From Natronolimnohabitans sp. A-GB9 (GTDB lineage Archaea > Halobacteriota > Halobacteria > Halobacteriales > Natrialbaceae), in NCBI RefSeq assembly GCF_030848565.1, contig NZ_JAVDDV010000007.1, positions 124,001 through 188,000 of the forward strand: a stretch of 64,000 nucleotides of DNA. The letters run 5' to 3'. Shown here piece after piece: positions 25,375 to 36,629 of this stretch; positions within the stretch are counted from its first letter, which is position 1; each line of letters opens with the position of its first letter. The position numbers and the translations under genes were made by a program. The notes beneath the pieces are model-generated. The model did not search any database and had not been told where the DNA came from. It saw only the letters and a program-made list of their open reading frames with translations.

Positions 25375-25440
25375 ATACTGATTACTGTACCGATGTCCCG
25401 ACGAAACCACGATCTCCCGACGAGCATACTAGTCCGGGTC
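25375..25440. repeat. Partial palindromic element, P4-like
   Basis: ATACTGATTACTGTACCGAT followed by GTCCCGACG matches the left end of the P4 element at 36032 over about 25 bp. The remainder is diverged. It lies between the EMC6-like operon and the stop of the large surface protein. Confidence 0.5.
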
Positions 25441-28400
25441 AGCCGGCGCTAACAGCGTCGATTGCGATATCGATCGCTGTTTCGGTCGAAATCTCGCCGT
25501 CACTACCTGCCTCTCCAAATCGACTCTCTAGATTGGCTTCCTCGATCTCGATCTCCGCTGAATCCTCTCTATCCTGACTTTGAACCGTAAGTTCACTGGT
25601 CCCAGCGTCGTCGATGCTGGTATCCCACTCGAGTGTGATCTGCTCGTCATCGTCTTCCTCCAGGAGACTCTCGAGCGTTACTTCCTTTGTATCGACAGTT
25701 CGATTGTCGGCCGTAAGCGTAATCTGCTGTGTCTCGGTCGACTCTATTCTGTCCTGGTATCGGCTGGTGATCGTCGCAGAGACTGTCGCGTCCTCACCAG
25801 CAGTCACGTTCTCCTCGACGTCGTCGATCTCGACCTCGAAGATACCCTCCGCCTCGAGTTCCCAGGTGAACCGTGGATAGTCGTCGGGAATCGCAATCCA
25901 GGGGCCACCCTCTTCTTCGAATTTGAGGTTCCCCATCCGTCCATCCTGGTTCACGTCGATACCGGTCATCTCGTCTTTACTCCGTCCGTTCCAGTCGAGT
26001 GTGGGGTCCGGCGCACCCCAGTCGACGTCGTTGACGCCGTAAGGCTCTTCGGTGTTTCGCCAGTAGACGCTCTCAGCGAACGTATCGCCTTGGGTACTCT
26101 CACGCCAACTACCCAGGACCGTTCCAACGACCGCACCGGTCGCGTCGTCGAATCCCTCCGCGCTGGTGATCGTATACATCTGTTCGAACGTGGAGTCCCG
26201 ATAGGACGACGTCCCAATGAGTCCACCTGCGTGACTCCGATCCGGTGGGCTGCTGAACCCGTACCCGTTATACTTCTCCCCGTCGGCGATTACCGTCATG
26301 TTCTGTGTGTAGCCGACGGACACTTCGGTCTGGAACGTCGACCGACCGACCAAGCCACCGATTCCTTCACCGTTCATACCGTCTCTGTTCGGCCCACCGA
26401 TGACGGTCCCTTCCGCGACGAGTTCGTTGTCGAGACTGGCGTGGACGCCGTCACCGATTAGCCCACCGACGAGTTGCTCTTCGGCCTCCACTCTGCCTTC
26501 ACTCCGTGACTGGATCACTTCCCCGCCGGCCTGTCCGACGAGTGCTCCGACGTGTTGTCGTCCGTGGACATCTACGTCCGCCAGCCTGACGTTCTCAATC
26601 GTCGAACCGGAGCCGATCGGATCGACGTTCGTCGTGTGGCCAGTTGCACCGAACAGTCCAACGAACCGCTCGTCCGGCCGGTCGATATACAATCCATCAA
26701 TCAGATGGCCGTTACCGTCGAACGTTCCCTTGAACGAGCCACTGGAAGTCCCATCGTCTACGTCGCTGTTAGCGTATTCGTTACCGTCCTGGCCGATCGG
26801 TTCGAATCCAGCACCGTCGCTCCAGAACTCCGTTCCGTGGGCGTCGATATTATCGACCAATTCGTAGTGGGCCTCGAGGTCGTGATCGTCGATACACTGG
26901 AGTTCGTCGACGGTACTCACTTGGTACGGATCGTCACTCGTACCACTTCCCTCGTAGTTGATCTCACTGCAGACAGGACCGTCGCGCTCGAGTACAACGA
27001 CGGTTTCCATCTCGTCGTCTACGACATCGTTTGCCTCGTCGTAGACCTCGGCCGTAACCCGGTGAGTGATCTCATCGTCGTCAGTCTCGTACTCGAAATC
27101 TACCGTTCCACCCCTCCAGTCATTATTGCCATACTCGATGGTCTGGATCTCGTCGCCGTCCGAATCCACTAATCGAGCAACGTAGTCGTCCGAATCGCCA
27201 CTGGCTCTGAGGACATCGGCTTCGATATCCACAGTCTGCCCCTGTTTAATCGGCTCCTCGACATCGAGATCGACTAGTTCGATATACTCGATTAGGTTGT
27301 CAGCGTCTGTCGTACTACTATCCGTCTCCGTCGTGATCGTTACCTGATCGTTCAGTCCCGGCTCTTCGACAGCACCCCACTGGAGTTCGGTTGTGCCGGT
27401 TTCGCCATCATCGAGTTCGACTGCCTCGATATCGACTACCTCCCCATCGAATCCCTCGAGTCCGACGAATTGCTGGTCGGTAACCGATCCTTCGTTCGTA
27501 ATCTCGACATCGGCTGTTAACGGCTCACCGGGCTTGACCGGATCGTTGAACTCGATATCATCGATAGTAAACGTCGGCTCGTCATCGACGACGATGAACG
27601 TCCCTTGTTCATCTAACGTGTCCCCTCCAGGGTCGGTCTTAACATCGTACTGATACTCGTTTCCAGGTTCGACACCAATGGTGTTTCCACCGTTGCCTGT
27701 TCGGAAAAAGTGATTTCCACCTTCCCACTCACTTTGATCATCCGTTCGTATCTTTTCACCCGACTCGATCGCCGCTTTCGACGTTATCTCGCGTTCCTCG
27801 ATCAGATCACCCGACTCATCACGGATCGAAAGAGTAGCAGTAACTGTCTCTTCGGAGTCGCCGTCGTTCCTCAGTGTAGTATTGATATGGAAATCAGTAC
27901 CATCTTCGACGACGTTGTCGGTGATCGTGTGTGGTTCCCCCTCACTGTGCGGAGTGAGACCGTTATCGTCCTCAACCAGGAAATATGGCTGCGACTGTGG
28001 ATCACCGAAGCCGTTTATTTTGACGACGACGGCATCTTCACCCAGCTCAGTCGGTCCGTCTACAGTGATATCCCACTCGTCGACGTCCGCTTTCTCATCA
28101 CTGAAGTGCTGTGCCCATCCTTCAGCATACGTGCTTTCGATCCTGAGAGCAAGATGATCTCCAGTGGGGTTTTCCTTTACTTGCTCGAGATCCTCAGCCG
28201 CCTCCATCGCAGTCTCGGGATTGTTTCGTATCTGTGTGGATGATTTCTCATCGGTCCCACTGGTGATCTGCATGAGATCCAGTTCGAGAGTGCCATCAGA
28301 ATCAAACCCTGTCTCCGGCGGGGATTCGATTCTGACTCCAGAGTCAGTTTGCTCCCAGATCGCACCACCTTGATGAGCGATCGTCCGGTCGTCGAGTTCG

Positions 28401-28774
28401 TACTCGAGTGCACCGAGAGTCACGGAATCCCCCGAACGGGTCTCCGATGGATTCTCTGAATCGTTGTACCAAGCGACCTCGAGCTCGCCGTCCTCGACGA
28501 CGGACAGGTCGGCGTCGGGTGGCACCTCGAGCGGTTGCGGATCGTCCGAAATCGTCGCCGTCGCGAGCGACTGATCGGTCTGGCTCATATACGTCACGGC
28601 ACGCTCCCGTTCGCTTTCGCTTTGTAATGCGTCGAACAGGGGTCCGGCAGCGACGAAAACCAGCATCGCGCCGAGGATCACCATCGCAAAGAGCAACACC
28701 AGTCCGAGTATCGGCGCAGCTGCACGGTCTTCGGAGTCCCCACCCCGTTCTTCGGGACGCTCCCACGACTTCAT
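25439..28774 (-). CDS. Giant pilin-anchored surface protein with CARDB-like and GLUG repeats
   Basis: The 1,111 residues start with a short charged leader, then a pilin-like hydrophobic helix APILGLVLLFAMVILGAM (about 20-45). This resembles the N-terminal domain of archaeal type IV pilin/DUF7289 proteins. The rest is extracellular and very acidic. It includes several Ig/CARDB-like stretches with DVEITNEGSVTDQQFV- and DVEEPIKQGQTVDIEADV-type sequences (about 300-600). From about residue 605 it has GSGTSDDPYQVSTVDELQ and a string of GLUG motifs (FVGLFGATG, VGALVGQAG, VGGLIGDG, IGGLVGRS, AGGLIGTSS) to about 900. A final CARDB-like domain follows. GC content is visibly lower than in the neighbours. 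The leaderless start is supported by a TATA box. Confidence 0.82.
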   Translation of the reverse strand: MKSWERPEERGGDSEDRAAAPILGLVLLFAMVILGAMLVFVAAGPLFDALQSESERERAVTYMSQTDQSLATATISDDPQPLEVPPDADLSVVEDGELEVAWYNDSENPSETRSGDSVTLGALEYELDDRTIAHQGGAIWEQTDSGVRIESPPETGFDSDGTLELDLMQITSGTDEKSSTQIRNNPETAMEAAEDLEQVKENPTGDHLALRIESTYAEGWAQHFSDEKADVDEWDITVDGPTELGEDAVVVKINGFGDPQSQPYFLVEDDNGLTPHSEGEPHTITDNVVEDGTDFHINTTLRNDGDSEETVTATLSIRDESGDLIEEREITSKAAIESGEKIRTDDQSEWEGGNHFFRTGNGGNTIGVEPGNEYQYDVKTDPGGDTLDEQGTFIVVDDEPTFTIDDIEFNDPVKPGEPLTADVEITNEGSVTDQQFVGLEGFDGEVVDIEAVELDDGETGTTELQWGAVEEPGLNDQVTITTETDSSTTDADNLIEYIELVDLDVEEPIKQGQTVDIEADVLRASGDSDDYVARLVDSDGDEIQTIEYGNNDWRGGTVDFEYETDDDEITHRVTAEVYDEANDVVDDEMETVVVLERDGPVCSEINYEGSGTSDDPYQVSTVDELQCIDDHDLEAHYELVDNIDAHGTEFWSDGAGFEPIGQDGNEYANSDVDDGTSSGSFKGTFDGNGHLIDGLYIDRPDERFVGLFGATGHTTNVDPIGSGSTIENVRLADVDVHGRQHVGALVGQAGGEVIQSRSEGRVEAEEQLVGGLIGDGVHASLDNELVAEGTVIGGPNRDGMNGEGIGGLVGRSTFQTEVSVGYTQNMTVIADGEKYNGYGFSSPPDRSHAGGLIGTSSYRDSTFEQMYTITSAEGFDDATGAVVGTVLGSWRESTQGDTFAESVYWRNTEEPYGVNDVDWGAPDPTLDWNGRSKDEMTGIDVNQDGRMGNLKFEEEGGPWIAIPDDYPRFTWELEAEGIFEVEIDDVEENVTAGEDATVSATITSRYQDRIESTETQQITLTADNRTVDTKEVTLESLLEEDDDEQITLEWDTSIDDAGTSELTVQSQDREDSAEIEIEEANLESRFGEAGSDGEISTETAIDIAIDAVSAG

Positions 28775-28796
28775 TTACTGAAATCCATTCACGATG

Positions 28797-28806
28797 TATT
28801 ATATAT
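28797..28806 (-). promoter_or_regulatory. TATA box of the large surface protein gene
   Basis: The plus-strand sequence TATTATATAT is a strong AT box 23-32 bp upstream of the start at 28774, indicating a leaderless mRNA. The remaining spacer to 29017 shows no convincing gene. Confidence 0.6.
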
Positions 28807-29017
28807 CTTCATGGTGATTCCAACGAACTGACTCTGACAGCGATCGACGCGACGGGACCGAACGAGGCCGCCAGACGGGGAGTGGACACTCGCACGCCGG
28901 TTCACTCTCACGAATCGGCCGCGATGCCACACCGTCGTCGACAACCGCCTCGAGGACACCGTCACCGACGCCGGTCGTCACACCGTGGGTTCACCGCCGG
29001 TGGAACACCTGGCCGTA

Positions 29018-29563
29018 TCAATCCTCGAGACACTCGATCTCGAGTTGTCGCTCGAGTTCGATCGTCACCTCGTCGTCGCTGGCGATGACCGAAATCGAGA
29101 CTGTCGCCGACCGTGACTCTTGATCGCCGGATCCGAAGAACCCACTCGCTGGACAGCGGAAGTCGCCTTTTGCGACGCCTAATCCCTCGTCGTGTTCGAC
29201 TCGAAGTCCGTCGCCGCCAGTGATGTCGTCGTTGTCCGACTCGATCGAGACGTCGTCGATTGTCAACCCGCCGTCGGGGGTGTTGTCCTCGAGGGTGAGC
29301 AGCTCTCGATCGTTGTATTCGTAGTCGCCACAGAGACCGAAAAAGCAGCCACCACCATCGTCGGCGTCGTCACTGTCCAACTCGAGCGTTCGATCGTCGA
29401 GTTCGTCGTCGTACTCGAGTCCGAGATACGCGTCCTCGTCGTCGGCCGTCTGGACCCCGACTCCCCGATCGGCAACGAGCGAGTCGAACGCACCGCTCGG
29501 TGCGACGACGAGCAGCGCGCCGACGAGTAGCAGTCCAGCACCGAGATACGTGAGCGATCGCAT
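29018..29563 (-). CDS. DUF1102-like exported surface protein A
   Basis: The 181 residues have an N-terminal hydrophobic signal (YLGAGLLLVGALLVVAPSGAF). The hallmark LVADRGVGVQTADDEDAYLG follows directly and is shared with the proteins at 30241 and 31472 (pattern ADRxVxVxTAxDxxAYLxLE). The mature part is Asp-rich with cysteines in GGCFFGLCGD, FRCPAS and IECLED that could form two disulfides. The form is like small camelysin/TasA-type beta-sandwich subunits. It lies 20 bp downstream of the membrane-anchored wHTH gene on the same strand, which suggests one operon. Its function is inferred only. Confidence 0.72.
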   Translation of the reverse strand: MRSLTYLGAGLLLVGALLVVAPSGAFDSLVADRGVGVQTADDEDAYLGLEYDDELDDRTLELDSDDADDGGGCFFGLCGDYEYNDRELLTLEDNTPDGGLTIDDVSIESDNDDITGGDGLRVEHDEGLGVAKGDFRCPASGFFGSGDQESRSATVSISVIASDDEVTIELERQLEIECLED

Positions 29564-29583
29564 CTGTTCTATCGATTCGACTG

Positions 29584-30120
29584 TTATGGTGGTTTTTCCA
29601 TCTCACCCAGACGCATCCGTCGGCTCTGTACCACGTGCACGATCGCCGACACCGCGAACAGCGCGAACACGAGCGTCGCCCAGCCGAGTTCGGGTACCGT
29701 CTCGGTCGGCACGACCTCGAGCCACAGTCCAGCCATCACAATCGCCGCGAGCACCGAGAGGCCGAGGTAGTACAGCCCCCACGGAATCGAGTTCTCCGGG
29801 ACGACGTCGAGGTAGACCTCGAGTTGGCTCGCCTCGTCGGTGAGCTCGACGGTTCGGTCGTCGAACTCGATCATGTCCGCACGCTCGAGCGTGGGCAGGT
29901 GTTGCTGCTGGAGCGCAGTGTAGACGCGCTTGCGCTCGCTCGAGGTTAGTTCCTCGATCTCCTTGTCGAGTTCCCAGGCGGCGACGTGTTCGGCGAGGTC
30001 GCCGAGTTCGACGGGTTCGTCCTCGCGTTTGCAGTAGTGGATGGCGTACCGACGCCGATGGTTACTCAGCAGGTCGAAAATCTCCCCGCGACCTGGCCGT
30101 GTCTCACCCTGTGTCCCCAT
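29584..30120 (-). CDS. Membrane-anchored winged-helix regulator (DUF7344-like)
   Basis: The 178 residues have an N-terminal winged helix beginning EIFDLLSNHRRRYAIHYC and continuing DLAEHVAAWELDKE. SSERKRVYTALQQQHLPTLE follows, then ADMIEFDDRTVELTDEA, the typical haloarchaeal DUF7344-type HTH. Two transmembrane helices come next (WGLYYLGLSVLAAIVMAGLW, WATLVFALFAVSAIVHVV) and a short basic tail. The protein would bind DNA while tethered to the membrane. It precedes the DUF1102-like gene 29018-29563 and is likely a regulator of the surface island (inference). ATG 30120 is chosen on domain start. Confidence 0.78.
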   Translation of the reverse strand: MGTQGETRPGRGEIFDLLSNHRRRYAIHYCKREDEPVELGDLAEHVAAWELDKEIEELTSSERKRVYTALQQQHLPTLERADMIEFDDRTVELTDEASQLEVYLDVVPENSIPWGLYYLGLSVLAAIVMAGLWLEVVPTETVPELGWATLVFALFAVSAIVHVVQSRRMRLGEMEKPP

Positions 30121-30240
30121 TGAAACCCGTACTGGATGTTCCTGATTTGGGATCGATAAGTATTCTGGCCAATTCCGGTCGGCTGGGAACACGAGCCGAT
30201 CGACTGACTCTCCACCGACGGTCGGTGTCTCGAGACAAGG

Positions 30241-31068
30241 CTAACACTGGACGCCATCGACGTCGGTCTGCTCGTCCGAAACCGTGCCGCTGACGTCCGC
30301 GTTGTTCCCGATCTCGACCGATCCACAGGCTGTCACGTCGCCGTCGATTTCGGCGTTGTTCCCGATCGTGACGTCCCCGCCAGCGACGATATCACCACTG
30401 ACGAGGTTGTTCGAGACCGTGATATCGCCCTGGGAGACGATCTCTCCGACGTTCGCATTGTTGTCGACGGTCACCGAGCCGCCACTGGAGATCGTCCCAT
30501 CGACGGCAACGTTGTTGTCGACTGTGACGTCGCCGCCAGTGGTGACGTCGCCGTCTTCGTCGGTCGAAATCTCGAGGGGGTCGTCCGTCCCACACGTCAC
30601 AGGGACGAACGCGGCCGTCGTTCGCGTCGCGTCGACGCTCGAGGACGTGGCCGACGCGACGAACTCCAGTTCGACCTGGTAGGCACCGTCGACCGTTCCC
30701 GCGTCGGTACACGCGAGTTCCACGTCGAACGTGCCAGTCTCGCTTCCCTGCTGAACCGTCGCCTCGAGCGACGACGCCGTCGCGTCGCCGTCGCCAGAGA
30801 GGCCAACGACGGAGGCGTCGATATCGTCCTGCTCGAGCCCGCCGAGGCCGTCGGTCAGCGTGTAGACGACCGTAGTCTCCGTCGGCGAGTCGATAGCAGC
30901 CGACGACGAGCGATCCTCGAGACCGAGGTAGGCCTCCGAGTCAGGGGCGGTCTCGACGCTCACGCCGCGATCGGCGGCGATCGTCCCGAATCCGAAGGTC
31001 GGCCCGGCCATGACTACCGCTCCGAGGACGATTAACCCGATCGCGACGACTGAAAGTATCCGTGACAT
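30241..31068 (-). CDS. DUF1102-like exported protein B with bactofilin-like beta-solenoid repeats
   Basis: The 275-residue protein has a signal helix (LSVVAIGLIVLGAVVMAGP). The DUF1102 hallmark AADRGVSVETAPDSEAYLG follows at 31-49, then a beta-rich domain to about 165. From 178 to 266 there are five repeats of 17-19 residues: GGDVTVDNNVAVDG, GGSVTVDNNANVGE, GDITVSNNLVSGD, GDVTIGNNAEIDGD and GSVEIGNNADVSG. This is the pattern of polymer-forming bactofilin-type right-handed beta-helices. Cys120, 159, 248 and 275 may form disulfides. A role as a self-assembling cell-surface subunit is inferred. It is divergent from the third DUF1102 gene at 31472. Confidence 0.78.
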   Translation of the reverse strand: MSRILSVVAIGLIVLGAVVMAGPTFGFGTIAADRGVSVETAPDSEAYLGLEDRSSSAAIDSPTETTVVYTLTDGLGGLEQDDIDASVVGLSGDGDATASSLEATVQQGSETGTFDVELACTDAGTVDGAYQVELEFVASATSSSVDATRTTAAFVPVTCGTDDPLEISTDEDGDVTTGGDVTVDNNVAVDGTISSGGSVTVDNNANVGEIVSQGDITVSNNLVSGDIVAGGDVTIGNNAEIDGDVTACGSVEIGNNADVSGTVSDEQTDVDGVQC

Positions 31069-31471
31069 GTAGGGATAGGAGATATTCCGTACAAAGACTA
31101 CGGTGTGTGGACGTATAAGATCACGGTACTGTTCAAGAATGACATACAATGGAGCGCGACGCCGGGTGGGATATGACAACGTGGCCGGTCGTGACAGTCG
31201 TCGCGAGCGTGATGGATGTGACAGTGACTCGATCCACCGTGTGACTCGGATACATGCGTATTGATATCTATGTGTGTTCCAGGAACCGGCGTTTTCGGCA
31301 GTTCAGGCCGGGCTTGAAGCCGGTATGGATTGCCCTGTAGCGAGTATTATCAGGTCTGTAGAGTATCTTGGCACTCAATACGAAGTGGGTGGCGCTCCAA
31401 GGGTGGAGTAAGAACCGCGGCCCGGACCCCACGGGTGAGGGTCACGGCGCGGTTAGATGGAGATCACAAAC
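31069..31471. promoter_or_regulatory. Divergent regulatory region with structured leader
   Basis: This 403-bp spacer has no gene. Two hairpins lie just upstream of the rightward gene. CTCCA/TGGAG is at 31395-31408. AACCGCG (31413-31419) pairs with CGCGGTT (31448-31454) and encloses GACCC/GGGTC (31425-31429, 31439-31443). A TATA-like GAGTATTATC near 31341 would give a leader of about 100 nt. CTTATACG on the minus strand near 31112 may serve the leftward gene. Confidence 0.5.
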
Positions 31472-32023
31472 ATGAGCATGAACCGACGCAATGTGTTAGT
31501 TGGATTGGGTACGATCGTCGCGGGCGGTGGCGCTGCACTGGGGACGGGCGCGTTCAGTAGCGTGGAAGCCGATCGAGACGTGACCGTCGAGACTGCGGGT
31601 GACGGGAGTGCGTACCTCGAGATGGAAGGTGACGATGACTACGTGACTGACGGTGGCGGTGATGACGATACACTGGAACTCGATCTCGGCGGACCTGACG
31701 GTGACAGCGGTTTCAACCGGGATGCAACCACCGTCGTTGAAGGAATCGTCACGCTACGGAACAATGCAGCAGACGGTACAGATATCGAAGTCGGATTCGG
31801 AGAGACAGGTGACTTAGATGACTCGACACAGGTCACGGTAAACGATGGCGATGGGAACGTTGCGGATGTGGAGTTCTACTTCGACGATCTCGATGATGGG
31901 ACTACACCAACTGTCGAAGACAATGATGAGGCACACCTCAACGCCAAAATTGAGGTCAATAGTGACACTGATATAGACGACTCAGCAGAGATAACGATCG
32001 TCGCCGAAGAGACAGCAGACTGA
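31472..32023 (+). CDS. DUF1102-like exported protein C (SipW-type/Tat-like signal)
   Basis: The 183 residues begin MNRRNVLVGLGTIVAGGGA and continue LGTGAFSSVEADRDVTVET. The GTGAFSSVEADR segment is the signature of SipW-type signal peptides. The paired Arg also makes a Tat route possible. The mature protein is small and acidic, with beta-strand-like runs TVVEGIVTLRNNAADGTD and VADVEFYFDDLDDG, like camelysin/TasA subunits. GC content is lower than average. The start is ATG 31472, and ATG 31457 is an alternative. It opens a rightward series ending with the signal peptidase. Being the first cistron after a structured leader, it may be the major subunit. Confidence 0.78.
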   Translation: MSMNRRNVLVGLGTIVAGGGAALGTGAFSSVEADRDVTVETAGDGSAYLEMEGDDDYVTDGGGDDDTLELDLGGPDGDSGFNRDATTVVEGIVTLRNNAADGTDIEVGFGETGDLDDSTQVTVNDGDGNVADVEFYFDDLDDGTTPTVEDNDEAHLNAKIEVNSDTDIDDSAEITIVAEETAD

Positions 32024-32114
32024 AGGGAAAGAGTATTCGTCCCTGATCCCTCTACGAAATTTCGGTTTACCGATCGCTGAAAGACACCCGACTCGCATAG
32101 ATAGGACGCCATTT

Positions 32115-33284
32115 GTGATCGCTCGACAGCCATCCACCAAGATCCTGCTTACTGCTGCGGCAGTCTGCTTTCTGTTCGGACTCGCAGTCCCGACAGTCGC
32201 GATCACGGTGGGTGAGGATTCAGCGAGCGACGACGTCGTCCTCGAGCCGACCTCCCAGTACGCCGTGGTCCACGACGACGAACTCCGCCTCGATCTCGAG
32301 GCGCTCAACGAGCGTGCAGTCACGCACACGGACGGTGTGTTCGCGATCACGGTCACCGACGACACTGTCGAGGCGGTCTGGCTCGAGAACGACGTCGACG
32401 GCCTCGAGTTCTACAGCACTGCCGATCCGACGACCGAGATTACCGACTCGAGCCCGCTCGAGCCGGCGGCGGGTGAGACGATCGCCGTCGGCGCCGCGGT
32501 CGATACGCGCATCGCCCAGCAGGGAACGGAGACGTTCTCGGTACACGTCGCCTACGAAGACGAGGACGGGAGCGACGGCGAGGACGATTCCGACGACGAC
32601 GAGCCGAAGGTCGTCGCCCTCGAGTCACTGGCGGTCGGCGAGTCGACAGTCGCGGTCGGCGACTCGGTGGTCGTGAACGCGACCTACCGCAATCACGGCT
32701 CGGAGACGAAACAGACGACGGCGGCGTTGGTCGTCGACGGAACCATCGTCGACACCGAGACGGTCGACCTGGAGCCCGATACCACCGAGACGGTTACGTT
32801 CGAGCGGTCGATGCAGTGGCCCGGGACGTACGAAGTCGGCGTCGATGGCGCGGCAAGCGAGTCGGTGACCGTCGAGGGGCCGCCAGTCGACGTCCTCGAG
32901 GCCGACGTCACCGAGACCGAACTCACGGCCGGTGGAGTCGGGACGGTCGAAGCGACGGTGTCGAACCCGACCGATCGGACGGTCGAACGCACCCTCGAGC
33001 TCGCGGTCGACGACATCGTCGTCGAGACGCGAACGGTGTCGATCGAGCCGAACGACGAGCGGACGGTCGCCTTCGAGCGACAGTTCGACGAGGCAGGGAC
33101 GTACGACGTCGCAGTCAGCGGCGTCACGGCCGGTTCGGTGACCGTCTCGGAGCCCGATCCCGTCTCCGTCGAGACCCGCGAGCTCTCGGCGGCGGCGACG
33201 GCAGCGCTCGCCCCGCCGATGGCGATGGGGCTGTTGTGTCTATCCATCGCCGCGAACCGACGCTGGGCGCTGGTGTCGACGTGA
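32115..33284 (+). CDS. Exported CARDB-type surface protein with C-terminal anchor
   Basis: The 389-residue protein has a signal helix (ILLTAAAVCFLFGLAVPTVA). A DUF1102-like first domain (about 35-160) is followed by an Asp/Ser linker. Two CARDB-like Ig domains come next: VALESLAVGESTVAVGDSVV (about 172-255) and VLEADVTETELTAGGVGTVE (about 260-345). A C-terminal hydrophobic helix near ALAPPMAMGLLCLSIAA ends in Arg. It would sit on the cell surface and could hold or cap a fibre (inference). The start is GTG 32115. It lies between DUF1102 protein C and the signal peptidase on one strand. Confidence 0.72.
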   Translation: MIARQPSTKILLTAAAVCFLFGLAVPTVAITVGEDSASDDVVLEPTSQYAVVHDDELRLDLEALNERAVTHTDGVFAITVTDDTVEAVWLENDVDGLEFYSTADPTTEITDSSPLEPAAGETIAVGAAVDTRIAQQGTETFSVHVAYEDEDGSDGEDDSDDDEPKVVALESLAVGESTVAVGDSVVVNATYRNHGSETKQTTAALVVDGTIVDTETVDLEPDTTETVTFERSMQWPGTYEVGVDGAASESVTVEGPPVDVLEADVTETELTAGGVGTVEATVSNPTDRTVERTLELAVDDIVVETRTVSIEPNDERTVAFERQFDEAGTYDVAVSGVTAGSVTVSEPDPVSVETRELSAAATAALAPPMAMGLLCLSIAANRRWALVST

Positions 33285-33296
33285 TCGTCTTCGGTC

Positions 33297-33378
33297 GTAC
33301 GGTTTACTGGAAGTCATCGCCGGCGCAACCGCGACCCGGGCGGCGGTTGCGCCGGGAAACCGTTACAGCGATCCGTAT
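33297..33378. repeat. Palindromic intergenic element, type P3
   Basis: The 82 bp align with 55750-55831. The ends are GTACGGTTTACTGG and CAGCGATCCGTAT, and the core is CCGGCGCAACCGC-gacccgggc-GGCGGTTGCGCCGG. The paired changes (GTAACC in one copy, GCAACC in the other, with the opposite arm changed to match) support selection for or copying of the hairpin. Confidence 0.8.
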
Positions 33379-33509
33379 CAGGCCGAGCGCCGTGGTCGCC
33401 CGAGGCGTCCTCGAGAGGCTGGAACTCTCGCGGTTTTTATGGGGAACAGCACCCAACAGATCATGCCACTGAATAGTACTTCAACGATGACGGTCACCAA
33501 CAACTGACG

Positions 33510-34682
33510 ATGACGGGAGCGAGCCTGCTCAAACGAGCGCTGGGTCTGGTCGTCGCCCTCGTCATCGTCCTGTTGGTGGTCGGCCAACTCCTCGGCCAGC
33601 CGATTCTGCTTGGGTACGTCGCGACCGACAGCATGGAGCCGACGATGGCAGCCGGCGACGGCTTCGTCGCGATTCCGGACGTCGCGTCCGGTTCGGTCGA
33701 GGAAGGCGACGTCGTCGTCTTCGAGGCCCGAGACCTCCACGGCGGGGCGTTGACGACACATCGCGTGGTCGGTGAGACCGACGAGGGGTACGTCACTCGA
33801 GGGGACGCGAACCCCTTTACCGACCAGGACGGTGGAGAGCCACACGTCTCTGACAGCCAGATCGTCGCCACAGCCTTGCAGGTAAACGGCGAGGTCGTAA
33901 CGATCCCACACCTCGGGACGGCGATCATGGGCGTCCAGAGCGTCACGGAATCGGCTTACGGGACCGTCGCGTCGGTCGCCGGGATCACGACGACCACCGA
34001 TTCCGAGAGCCTCGGCGCCGTCCTGGTCGCGATCGGCGTCGCCCTGCTCGGGTTCGGGGCGTTGTTCGACCGTCTCGGACCCGGCCAGCGGGAACCCCGT
34101 CGCTCGCGCTCGCGTGAGAACGTGATCGCGTTCTGGACGGCATTGGGGCTGGTCTTGCTCGTGTTCGTCACGTTCGCGACCGCAGCGATGGTCGTCCCCG
34201 CTGGAACGGTCGAGTACGGACTCGTAAGCACCGATTCGCCAAGCGACGACCCGCAGGTACTCGAGCCGGGCGAGACCGGCGAACTGACCCGAACCGTCGA
34301 CAACGCGGGCTACCTGCCGATCGTGACCATCCACGAGACCGAACGCGACGACGTCGCCGTCGAGCCTGCGTCCCAGACGGTCGGACTCCGCTCGAGTAGC
34401 GAGGCGACGGTCTCGTTGACAGCGCCGGCAGAAACCGGGGAGTACACGCGCCACGTTAGCGAGTATCGGTATCTCGCGGTGCTCCCACCGTCGGTGCTCG
34501 TCTGGCTACACGGCGTGCACCCGCTGCTCGCGATCGCCGCTGTCAACGGTGTCATCGTCGGCGTTGCCGTCGCACTCGTGCTCGTCGTCTTCGGTCGCAA
34601 CGACCTTCGGTTGCGTTCGGCCGGCACTCACGTCCCGCTGTCGACGCGTCTCGAGCGAAAACTCAGAAAATGGCGAGAATGA
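33510..34682 (+). CDS. S26B signal peptidase I with extra membrane-ectodomain module
   Basis: This is an archaeal/ER-type signal peptidase. The catalytic set is Ser41 in TDSMEPTM, His84 in THRVVGE (in place of bacterial Lys), and Asp99 in VTRGDAN. Unlike a minimal enzyme of about 200 residues, it has 390. After two central helices (GAVLVAIGVALLGFGALF, FWTALGLVLLVFVTFATAAM) there is an external Ig-like domain with VLEPGETGELTRTVDNAGYL (about 235-330). A last helix, IAAVNGVIVGVAVALVLVV, follows. It stands beside DUF1102 and DUF5305 genes, suggesting a dedicated SipW-like processing enzyme for this island. Confidence 0.87.
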   Translation: MTGASLLKRALGLVVALVIVLLVVGQLLGQPILLGYVATDSMEPTMAAGDGFVAIPDVASGSVEEGDVVVFEARDLHGGALTTHRVVGETDEGYVTRGDANPFTDQDGGEPHVSDSQIVATALQVNGEVVTIPHLGTAIMGVQSVTESAYGTVASVAGITTTTDSESLGAVLVAIGVALLGFGALFDRLGPGQREPRRSRSRENVIAFWTALGLVLLVFVTFATAAMVVPAGTVEYGLVSTDSPSDDPQVLEPGETGELTRTVDNAGYLPIVTIHETERDDVAVEPASQTVGLRSSSEATVSLTAPAETGEYTRHVSEYRYLAVLPPSVLVWLHGVHPLLAIAAVNGVIVGVAVALVLVVFGRNDLRLRSAGTHVPLSTRLERKLRKWRE

Positions 34683-34723
34683 TCGGGATCACGCAAGCCG
34701 CCATCGAACGGTGGCCAGTACCG

Positions 34724-34730
34724 TTATATT
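34724..34730 (+). promoter_or_regulatory. TATA box of the DUF5305 gene
   Basis: TTATATT ends 28 bp before GTG 34758, which would make that GTG a leaderless start. Confidence 0.45.
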
Positions 34731-34757
34731 GGTCGCAGAACGTGACTGTACGCATGT

Positions 34758-36032
34758 GTGTCAGTCGGTCGGCCCGTGGGGGCGGGTCGACTCGGAATTT
34801 GGGGGAGGGTCGTCGGCTCGCCGAAGTCGACCGGGGGTGGTCGGGTCGTGATCGATAGCCCACGCCTCGAGTTGTTGCTCGCCAGACACGGCCGGACGAT
34901 CGCGATCGCACTGGTCGCCGTCGGCGTACTGGCGCTTCTCGCTTCGGGGTGGGCTGTCGCGAATCCCGCGACGACGACGACCCCACAGTACGCGGAGGAA
35001 CGGGTCTCGAGCGACGTCGACACGAGCACCGTCGTCGTCCAGGACGGGACGCTCTGGAACGAGGGTGATCGCCTCGAGAACAGTGAGGTCTACCTGCTAA
35101 ACGACTCGCCGGAGTTGACCGTCGAGCCGACGACTCGGCTGCAAAACGAGACCGACGGGACGCCAATCGAAGACGGTGACGTCCACCACGAACTGACGCT
35201 TCGGTTCGAAGCGACCCGAAACGACGCGACGTTCTGGAACGAGACACACACTTTGATCGACGAATCGACGTCCCTCGAGAACGGTGTCGCGAGTTCGGAG
35301 ACGACGGTCGACGTCGAGTCCTACCGGGACCGACAACAGCAACTCGAGGCCGAACTCTCCGGTGTCGGCTCGGTCGACCTCGTCCTCGAGTTCCGCACCG
35401 AGTACGACACCGGAACGACCGGGAACGTACAGACGGCGTCGACACCGTTTCGGGTGACCGACGACGCCTACTGGCTCGAGGAGTCGCTTTCCGTGTCGGA
35501 CGAGCACACACACAGAACGGGTCTCGAGGAGACGACCGAGTCGCGAAGCCTCGCGATGATCGCAGGCCTCTCGCTGGTGGGAACGCTGTCGCTGGCCGCC
35601 GGGGCGGTCGTCGCTCGCCGGGCGCCGATCGACGAGGAAGCCGCCCGCCGTGCCGTCCACGAACGGCGCTACGCGGAGTGGATCTCGCGTGGCTCGATCC
35701 CAATGTGGATCGGCGACTACCACGTCTCGTTGGACACCCTAGAGGACGTCGTCGACGTCGCGATCGACACGAACGAGCGCGTCGTCCACGACGAGCAGCG
35801 GGGGCTGTTCGCCGTCGTCACCGACGGCGTCGTCTACTACTACAGCGACCGCGGCCGCTGGGAGGAGACCGCCTGGCCGGAGATGAACCTCTCGGACCAG
35901 TCTACGACGGCCGCCGACGCAGACGGTGACGTGCCGATCTCGCCCGATGATCTGGATCTGGAGGGCAGCGCCGAGTTCGACGACCCCGAGGACGGATTCG
36001 ACGGGGATGAGGACGTCTGGAAGAAACTCTGA
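34758..36032 (+). CDS. DUF5305 family membrane protein
   Basis: The product has up to 424 residues, with a first transmembrane helix (TIAIALVAVGVLALLASGWAV). A beta-rich external domain of about 220 residues includes the ELTVEPTTRLQNETDG, VDVESYRDRQQQLEAELSG and VDLVLEFRTEYDTG blocks. A second helix follows (LAMIAGLSLVGTLSLAAGAVV), then a cytoplasmic part with DTLEDVVDVAIDTNERVVHD and GVVYYYSDRGRW. This is the pattern of DUF5305, which recurs near archaeal SipW-type signal peptidases. The start could instead be GTG 34848, giving 394 residues. The stop TGA leads directly into the P4 palindromic element. Confidence 0.8.
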   Translation: MSVGRPVGAGRLGIWGRVVGSPKSTGGGRVVIDSPRLELLLARHGRTIAIALVAVGVLALLASGWAVANPATTTTPQYAEERVSSDVDTSTVVVQDGTLWNEGDRLENSEVYLLNDSPELTVEPTTRLQNETDGTPIEDGDVHHELTLRFEATRNDATFWNETHTLIDESTSLENGVASSETTVDVESYRDRQQQLEAELSGVGSVDLVLEFRTEYDTGTTGNVQTASTPFRVTDDAYWLEESLSVSDEHTHRTGLEETTESRSLAMIAGLSLVGTLSLAAGAVVARRAPIDEEAARRAVHERRYAEWISRGSIPMWIGDYHVSLDTLEDVVDVAIDTNERVVHDEQRGLFAVVTDGVVYYYSDRGRWEETAWPEMNLSDQSTTAADADGDVPISPDDLDLEGSAEFDDPEDGFDGDEDVWKKL

Positions 36033-36335: not shown

Positions 36336-36629
36336 ATGGCAGAGACCGACGGGGAGGAGATCGAAGATTTGCCACCGAGTGCGAAATTAGTCTTCAAGGT
36401 TCTCGAGTACGATGGGCCGCTGACGCAGAAACAGATCGTCGAGGAGTCGATGCTCTCGGCCCGAACCGTCCGGTACGCGCTCGAGCGCCTCGAGGAAATC
36501 GGTATCGTCGACGAGGATATCTACTTTGCAGACGCACGACAGAGTCTCTACCGTCTCGAGGAACCGGTGGCAGCCGACGGAAACGGCGTCGAAGACTCCC
36601 CCAAGAAAGACGCCTGCTGTGCCGAGTAG
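36336..36629 (+). CDS. Small winged-helix (MarR-like) regulator with C-terminal Cys pair
   Basis: The 97 residues contain a winged helix, AKLVFKVLEYDGPLTQKQIV, then EESMLSARTVRYALERLEE with recognition helix SARTVRYALERL, then IGIVDEDIYFADARQSLYRL. The flexible tail ends DACCAE, with two adjacent cysteines that could sense metals or redox state. No ligand-binding domain is attached. Similar short MarR-like proteins are common in haloarchaea. The target genes are not known. The next gene starts 62 bp downstream on the same strand. Confidence 0.78.
   Translation: MAETDGEEIEDLPPSAKLVFKVLEYDGPLTQKQIVEESMLSARTVRYALERLEEIGIVDEDIYFADARQSLYRLEEPVAADGNGVEDSPKKDACCAE

Follow-up and report, generated by a model that had tools for sequence, protein, structure and literature searches.

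A gene cluster of Natronolimnohabitans sp. A-GB9 that is very probably a divergent Tat-fimbria (tafi) locus

Eight genes of the haloarchaeon Natronolimnohabitans sp. A-GB9 (g1–g8) are best explained, taken as a whole, as a divergent Tat-fimbria (tafi) locus, and we hold this reading with high confidence. The genes lie within the window, the 64,000-nucleotide stretch of contig NZ_JAVDDV010000007.1 that was analysed, and occupy exactly positions 25439–36032, where an earlier note made from the DNA letters had placed them (Table 1). That note had envisaged an extracellular fibre made by exported subunits, a dedicated S26B peptidase and membrane proteins, and conserved linkage of the genes bears this concept out. 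The membrane-tethered winged-helix protein (g3, a DUF7344 protein with two transmembrane (TM) segments), the CARDB protein with a C-terminal hydrophobic segment (g6), the enlarged S26B peptidase (g7) and the DUF5305 protein (g8) were all found as it described them. The system itself is already known, and the cluster is a further one of the tafi type. According to a passage in PMC12687288 (citing the description of tafi by Galeva et al., iScience 2025, doi 10.1016/j.isci.2025.111793), tafi components are exported by Tat and TafA is the core component.

Table 1. Genes of the cluster, in coordinates of the window
Gene	Product	Coordinates	Strand	Profile matches
g1	Accessory surface protein	25439..28774	-	DUF7289 pilin-type N-terminus + CARDB + GLUG
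g2	Short Taf subunit, Sec-type signal	29018..29563	-	TafE 25.3 / TafC 20.8 bits
g3	DUF7344 winged helix with two C-terminal TM segments	29584..30192	-	PF24035 99.8 bits
g4	Long Taf subunit, Sec-type signal	30241..31068	-	TafC 26.6, Bactofilin 31.9 bits
g5	Tat-exported Taf pilin, main subunit (predicted)	31472..32023	+	TafE 62.8 / TafA 52.9 bits
g6	Exported CARDB protein, C-terminal hydrophobic segment	32115..33284	+	CARDB 39.9 bits
g7	S26B signal peptidase with TM-β-TM extension	33510..34682	+	TIGR02228 55.1 bits, over cut-off
g8	DUF5305 membrane protein	34758..36032	+	PF17231 159 bits

Among the exported proteins g2, g4 and g5, only g5 has a twin-arginine signal (MSMNRRNVLVGLG), which is followed by a mature start of the GTGAFSSVEADR type, the pairing looked for in a tafi pilin. 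Cleavage of g5 is predicted between GTG and AFSSVEADR, with Phe at P2', so that the mature chain would begin at position 31550. All three proteins share the ADR...DxxAYLxLE motif that the earlier note had recognised (copies VADRGVGVQTADDEDAYLGLE, AADRGVSVETAPDSEAYLGLE, and EADRDVTVETAGDGSAYLEME). Its label for them, DUF1102, was dropped, as Pfam DUF1102 (PF06510, cut-off 22.2 bits) matched none of g2, g4, and g5 at E ≤ 1 and the specific matches were to NCBIfam TafE, TafA, and TafC. DUF1102 does match paralogues elsewhere in the window genome, and in other Halobacteriota DUF1102 proteins align to the Taf profile (probability 98.2%, E 3e-14), which makes DUF1102 a remote Taf relative. The curated NCBIfam cut-offs are not reached by g5 (TafE, 62.8 of 155; TafA, 52.9 of 190), nor are they by pilins located at the same place in Natrinema and other Natrialbaceae (68.7 in locus L041 and 109.9 in L047). 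These equivalog cut-offs are thus narrow, and our claim is for a tafi relative with an orthologous locus rather than for a TafA, TafC, or TafE equivalog.

The best PDB match of g5 is 9P0A, a 2025 structure entitled ‘Structure of Natrinema sp. J7-2 Tafi pilus’, both by sequence (E 4.3e-6 for g5 alone, and 4e-47 for a profile of the g5 family) and by fold (chain C, E 6.5e-5). Identity between the two pilins is 42%, with the pairwise match stopping near residue 122. The 9P0A pilin is in turn 100% identical, over the aligned 214 amino acids, to the product of a Natrinema gari gene (L194:4935-5612), and two further Natrinema species have genes 90–92% identical to it. Counterparts of the window genes surround the pilin gene in the N. 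gari locus (g3, 69% identity; g6, 52%; g7, 71%; g8, 64%; and g9, 97%). Judged by sequence and gene order, g5 and the 9P0A pilin gene are positional orthologues. The last of these counterparts, g9 (36336–36629), lies just 3' of the cluster and encodes a 97-amino acid winged-helix protein, a small regulator. It is 97–99% identical in Natrinema loci whose pilins share only 42–46% with g5, an unusually strong conservation.

Mature g5 is modelled as a β-sandwich (pLDDT 78, pTM 0.73). Its nearest structural relatives are 9P0A and then chaperone-usher pilins (FimA, SafA, and PapG), which fill ranks 2–9 of the fold search; AbpA (PDB 7UEG) ranks 12th (E 0.039). Residues 1–8 of mature g5 form its most conserved segment and are unfolded in the monomer model, which matches the expectation for a donated strand. 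In the 9P0A chain 188 of 215 residues are modelled, which fits the loss of the first 26 or 27. The exported proteins could instead be monomeric surface or S-layer-associated proteins that do not polymerise, considering that the fibre of this organism is a predicted one and that some of the long subunits, several in number, contain large domains unlike pilins. The product of the orthologous gene is, however, the pilin of a solved pilus, and we judge a non-polymerising role to be extremely unlikely.

The cluster is widely conserved. Searching 146 Halobacteriales genomes for TafA, DUF5305, and the enlarged peptidase, a co-occurrence check of the kind proposed in the earlier note, gave a strongly positive result: 105 of 116 enlarged-peptidase matches have DUF5305 within 10 kb (chance ~0.8% each). 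A TafA match lies within 10 kb of at least 73 of the 116; this linkage count was replaced by a reading of 115 enlarged-peptidase loci using window-seeded profiles, with 19 loci around ordinary signal peptidases as controls. The Taf-type N-terminal motif was found in 104 of the 115 loci and in 0 of the 19 controls, and the same counts were obtained for DUF5305 (104/115 vs 0/19). A subunit, DUF5305, and DUF7344 occur together in 80 of the 115. The gene set looked for in a tafi locus (a long subunit, DUF7344, a pilin, the enlarged peptidase, and DUF5305) is conserved. Twin-arginine-like signals are carried by 201 of 271 subunits, and by at least one subunit in 98 of 104 loci. The consensus of the 271 subunits is MNRRKFLLGLGALAAGAGLLVGTGAFSSVEADRGVSVEVADDEDAYLGL, with the presumed P2' Phe conserved in 85%, Arg in 97%, and Asp in 91%. 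A Haloarcula-type locus (L124), whose TafA, TafC, and TafE exceed the NCBIfam cut-offs, likewise contains this peptidase, DUF7344, and DUF5305. The window genome has four such loci, the peptidases of which are widely separated in the tree; the three further peptidase–DUF5305–Taf clusters are at C67:50–54 kb, C34:43–47 kb, and C23:245–247 kb. A haloarchaeal-type cluster was also seen in a ‘Mollicutes bacterium’ metagenome-assembled genome (L231), which is probably misbinned.

The peptidase g7 is of the S26B type, dedicated and linked to the subunits. Its Ser41, His84, Asp99, and Asp105 are invariant, and its TM-β-TM extension has homologues outside Halobacteriales. In 80 of 113 loci the peptidase gene is directly followed, on its 3' side, by DUF5305. 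In the window this gene, g8, probably has its true start at GTG 34848 and encodes a TM segment, a β ectodomain, a second TM segment, and a cytoplasmic domain (model pLDDT 86). A fold search of the PDB with the DUF5305 ectodomain gave no useful match (TM on query ≤0.19), no viral match to it was credible, and no paper on DUF5305 was found in the literature searched. On the 5' side of the peptidase, a non-subunit gene of at least 270 amino acids immediately precedes it in 61 loci, and 40 of these 61 genes encode hydrophobic segments at both the N- and C-terminus. We consider g6 a candidate cell-surface anchor.

DUF7344, the family of g3, is present in 87 of the 115 loci, and 71 of 88 such genes directly adjoin one for a subunit. 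It also occurs in 12 of the 19 controls, so its presence alone is not specific, which weakened the case for a specific role of this winged-helix protein. Its position beside the subunit gene is more telling than its presence, and g3 is a candidate local regulator. In some of these 12 controls (among loci L155–L173) the DUF7344 gene directly adjoins the ordinary signal peptidase.

Besides the pilin, the window encodes two further Taf subunits. The longer one, g4, more likely starts at ATG 31068 and falls under the TafC cut-off (26.6 of 410). Its C-terminus, a feature absent from the earlier note, is a bactofilin-like β-solenoid (PF04519, 31.9 bits against a cut-off of 27.9), and full-length relatives occur in six Natronorubrum and Natrinema loci. 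With its Taf head and β-solenoid, g4 is a likely candidate for a tip or adapter; g2, identified by the shared motif, is a candidate minor subunit or adapter. We scanned 92 Taf subunits of 245–760 amino acids for domains behind the Taf head, and found laminin-G lectin domains in nine, bactofilin in five, NosL in five, GLUG in two, and ricin-B lectin in two, along with β-helix and other domains. The long subunit is modular, a Taf head joined to interchangeable C-termini (lectin or GLUG; bactofilin in the window), and resembles two-domain tip adhesins. NosL is a copper-chaperone family; the five long Taf subunits matching it fall within loci L040–L153 (best 1.1e-15).

The giant GLUG/CARDB protein of the earlier note, g1, does have a pilin-type N-terminus (PF23960, DUF7289, 63.7 bits, over threshold); its CARDB and GLUG matches do not reach threshold. 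It did not hold its place in the core: relatives of its N-terminus occur in only 5 of the 115 loci, and g1 is accessory. About 177 amino acids at 41% identity are shared between g1 and a long Taf subunit encoded elsewhere in the genome, in another cluster (L129:3645-5774), a sequence likeness which suggests that DUF7289 proteins and Taf subunits have exchanged modules.

The reduced GC content noted earlier is real (g5, 0.549 and g1, 0.562, as compared to 0.634 for the window). Together with the four dissimilar copies in the genome, it might indicate a recently acquired horizontal island, whatever its product. Against this, the flanks are conserved, with nadE beside six loci of the family and ABCE1 beside eight, and the peptidase tree groups the window copy with those of L041–L045, which are located at the same place. 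Subunit GC is moreover below that of nearby genes in 94 of 103 loci (mean difference -6.1 points), so that low GC is a trait of such proteins generally. Because the flanks are conserved and subunits are low in GC throughout the family, we rejected the horizontal island as highly improbable, and the recent horizontal spread hinted at in the earlier note is not supported.

The matrix system proposed in that note would be of the true SipW/TasA (camelysin) type. In TasA, the site cleaved by SipW has Phe at P2' and is a poor one for Escherichia coli LepB (PMC10269814), and TasA forms donor-strand fibres (PMC9674648, PMC10151520). The GTGAF site of g5 resembles the TasA site, and g7 matches the SipW model at 3.5e-7. 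However, neither Peptidase_M73 (PF12389) nor the SipW-cognate signal (TIGR04088) matched g2, g4, or g5, and Peptidase_M73 is not among the matches listed for 43 Taf members. The SipW-cognate motif was found in 0 of the 115 Halobacteriales loci, in a motif count that is noisy (2 of the 19 controls match). The Taf and camelysin profiles do not align (probability 3.6%), and direct kinship is thus not supported. The fold comparison on g5, which recovered donor-strand pilins including AbpA, disfavours TasA (5OF1), which is not among the best 50 structural matches. We therefore regard a true SipW/TasA system in this haloarchaeon as very unlikely; the shared logic of subunits, dedicated peptidase, and membrane partners stands.

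That logic extends beyond Halobacteriales, where the 20 DUF5305 loci that we read include two disjoint kinds. Nine combine DUF7344 with subunits of the DUF1102/Taf type, their DUF1102 proteins being remote Taf relatives, and with an enlarged peptidase whose homology to g7 includes the extension. Seven have SipW-cognate signals, and four are of neither kind. In the SipW-cognate kind, the subunits beside DUF5305 score over the cut-offs for camelysin (PF12389) and for the SipW-cognate signal, and TasA structures are retrieved with a profile of these camelysins (E 3e-7). The enlarged peptidase of this kind is a relative of g7 (E 2e-20). The peptidase–DUF5305 pair thus lies beside both Taf/DUF1102 and camelysin/TasA subunits and is a module common to both fibre types. 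We offer more tentatively, as a conjecture that may well prove wrong, that the pair forms a conserved archaeal membrane platform on which donor-strand subunits of these two kinds, which are not detectably related by sequence, are processed, held, and polymerised, and which loads exchangeable two-domain tips, a part like that of chaperone and usher in bacteria.

A divergent tafi locus would work as follows. The pilin g5 would be made with its twin-arginine signal, exported via Tat, and probably cleaved by g7 before the conserved AF, at a site that has its P2' Phe in common with TasA. The conserved N-terminal segment released in this way would then fill the β-sandwich of the next subunit, and this donor-strand polymerisation would produce a thin pilus. 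Minor subunits g4 and g2 would be carried by their Sec-type signals, g4 perhaps to a tip or adapter position, while g6 and g8 may hold the fibre at the membrane or aid its assembly, and g3 may regulate locally. These results define the core of the system, in which the enlarged peptidase and DUF5305 recur with the same regularity as the pilin, and the same pair accompanies true camelysin/TasA in other archaea. What was a loose analogy between archaeal and Bacillus biofilm fibres becomes a testable case of shared machinery. The long modular subunit is probably an adhesin and would determine what the cell attaches to; it and the shared peptidase–DUF5305 module are most worth following.

Of the systems known, tafi (TafA/TafC/TafE; 9P0A) is most like the window locus, having a Tat-signal pilin with the same N-terminal motif, a long subunit in the TafC position, a DUF7344 regulator, an enlarged S26B peptidase, DUF5305, and an orthologous locus in Natrinema. 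The window differs in that its proteins fall under the TafA/C/E equivalog cut-offs, g2 and g4 have Sec-type signals, an extra DUF7289/GLUG protein is present, and g4 ends in a bactofilin-like solenoid, whereas the Haloarcula-type TafC ends in a laminin-G lectin domain. Chaperone-usher pili (FimA, SafA, PapG) provide the next-best folds, and their two-domain tip adhesins a functional analogue of g4, but the window locus has no usher or chaperone gene and the cells have no outer membrane. The tapA-sipW-tasA operon of Bacillus subtilis and sipW-calY of B. cereus place secreted β-sandwich subunits beside a dedicated S26B peptidase, and TasA also has Phe at P2' of its cleavage site. Their subunits are not detectably homologous to Taf, and the operons as described have no DUF5305, DUF7344, or peptidase extension, whereas g5 has a Tat signal. 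AbpA is likewise an archaeal donor-strand fibre, reported as TasA-like in work cited in a passage of PMC9674648, but is a weak structural match and not the nearest relative of g5.
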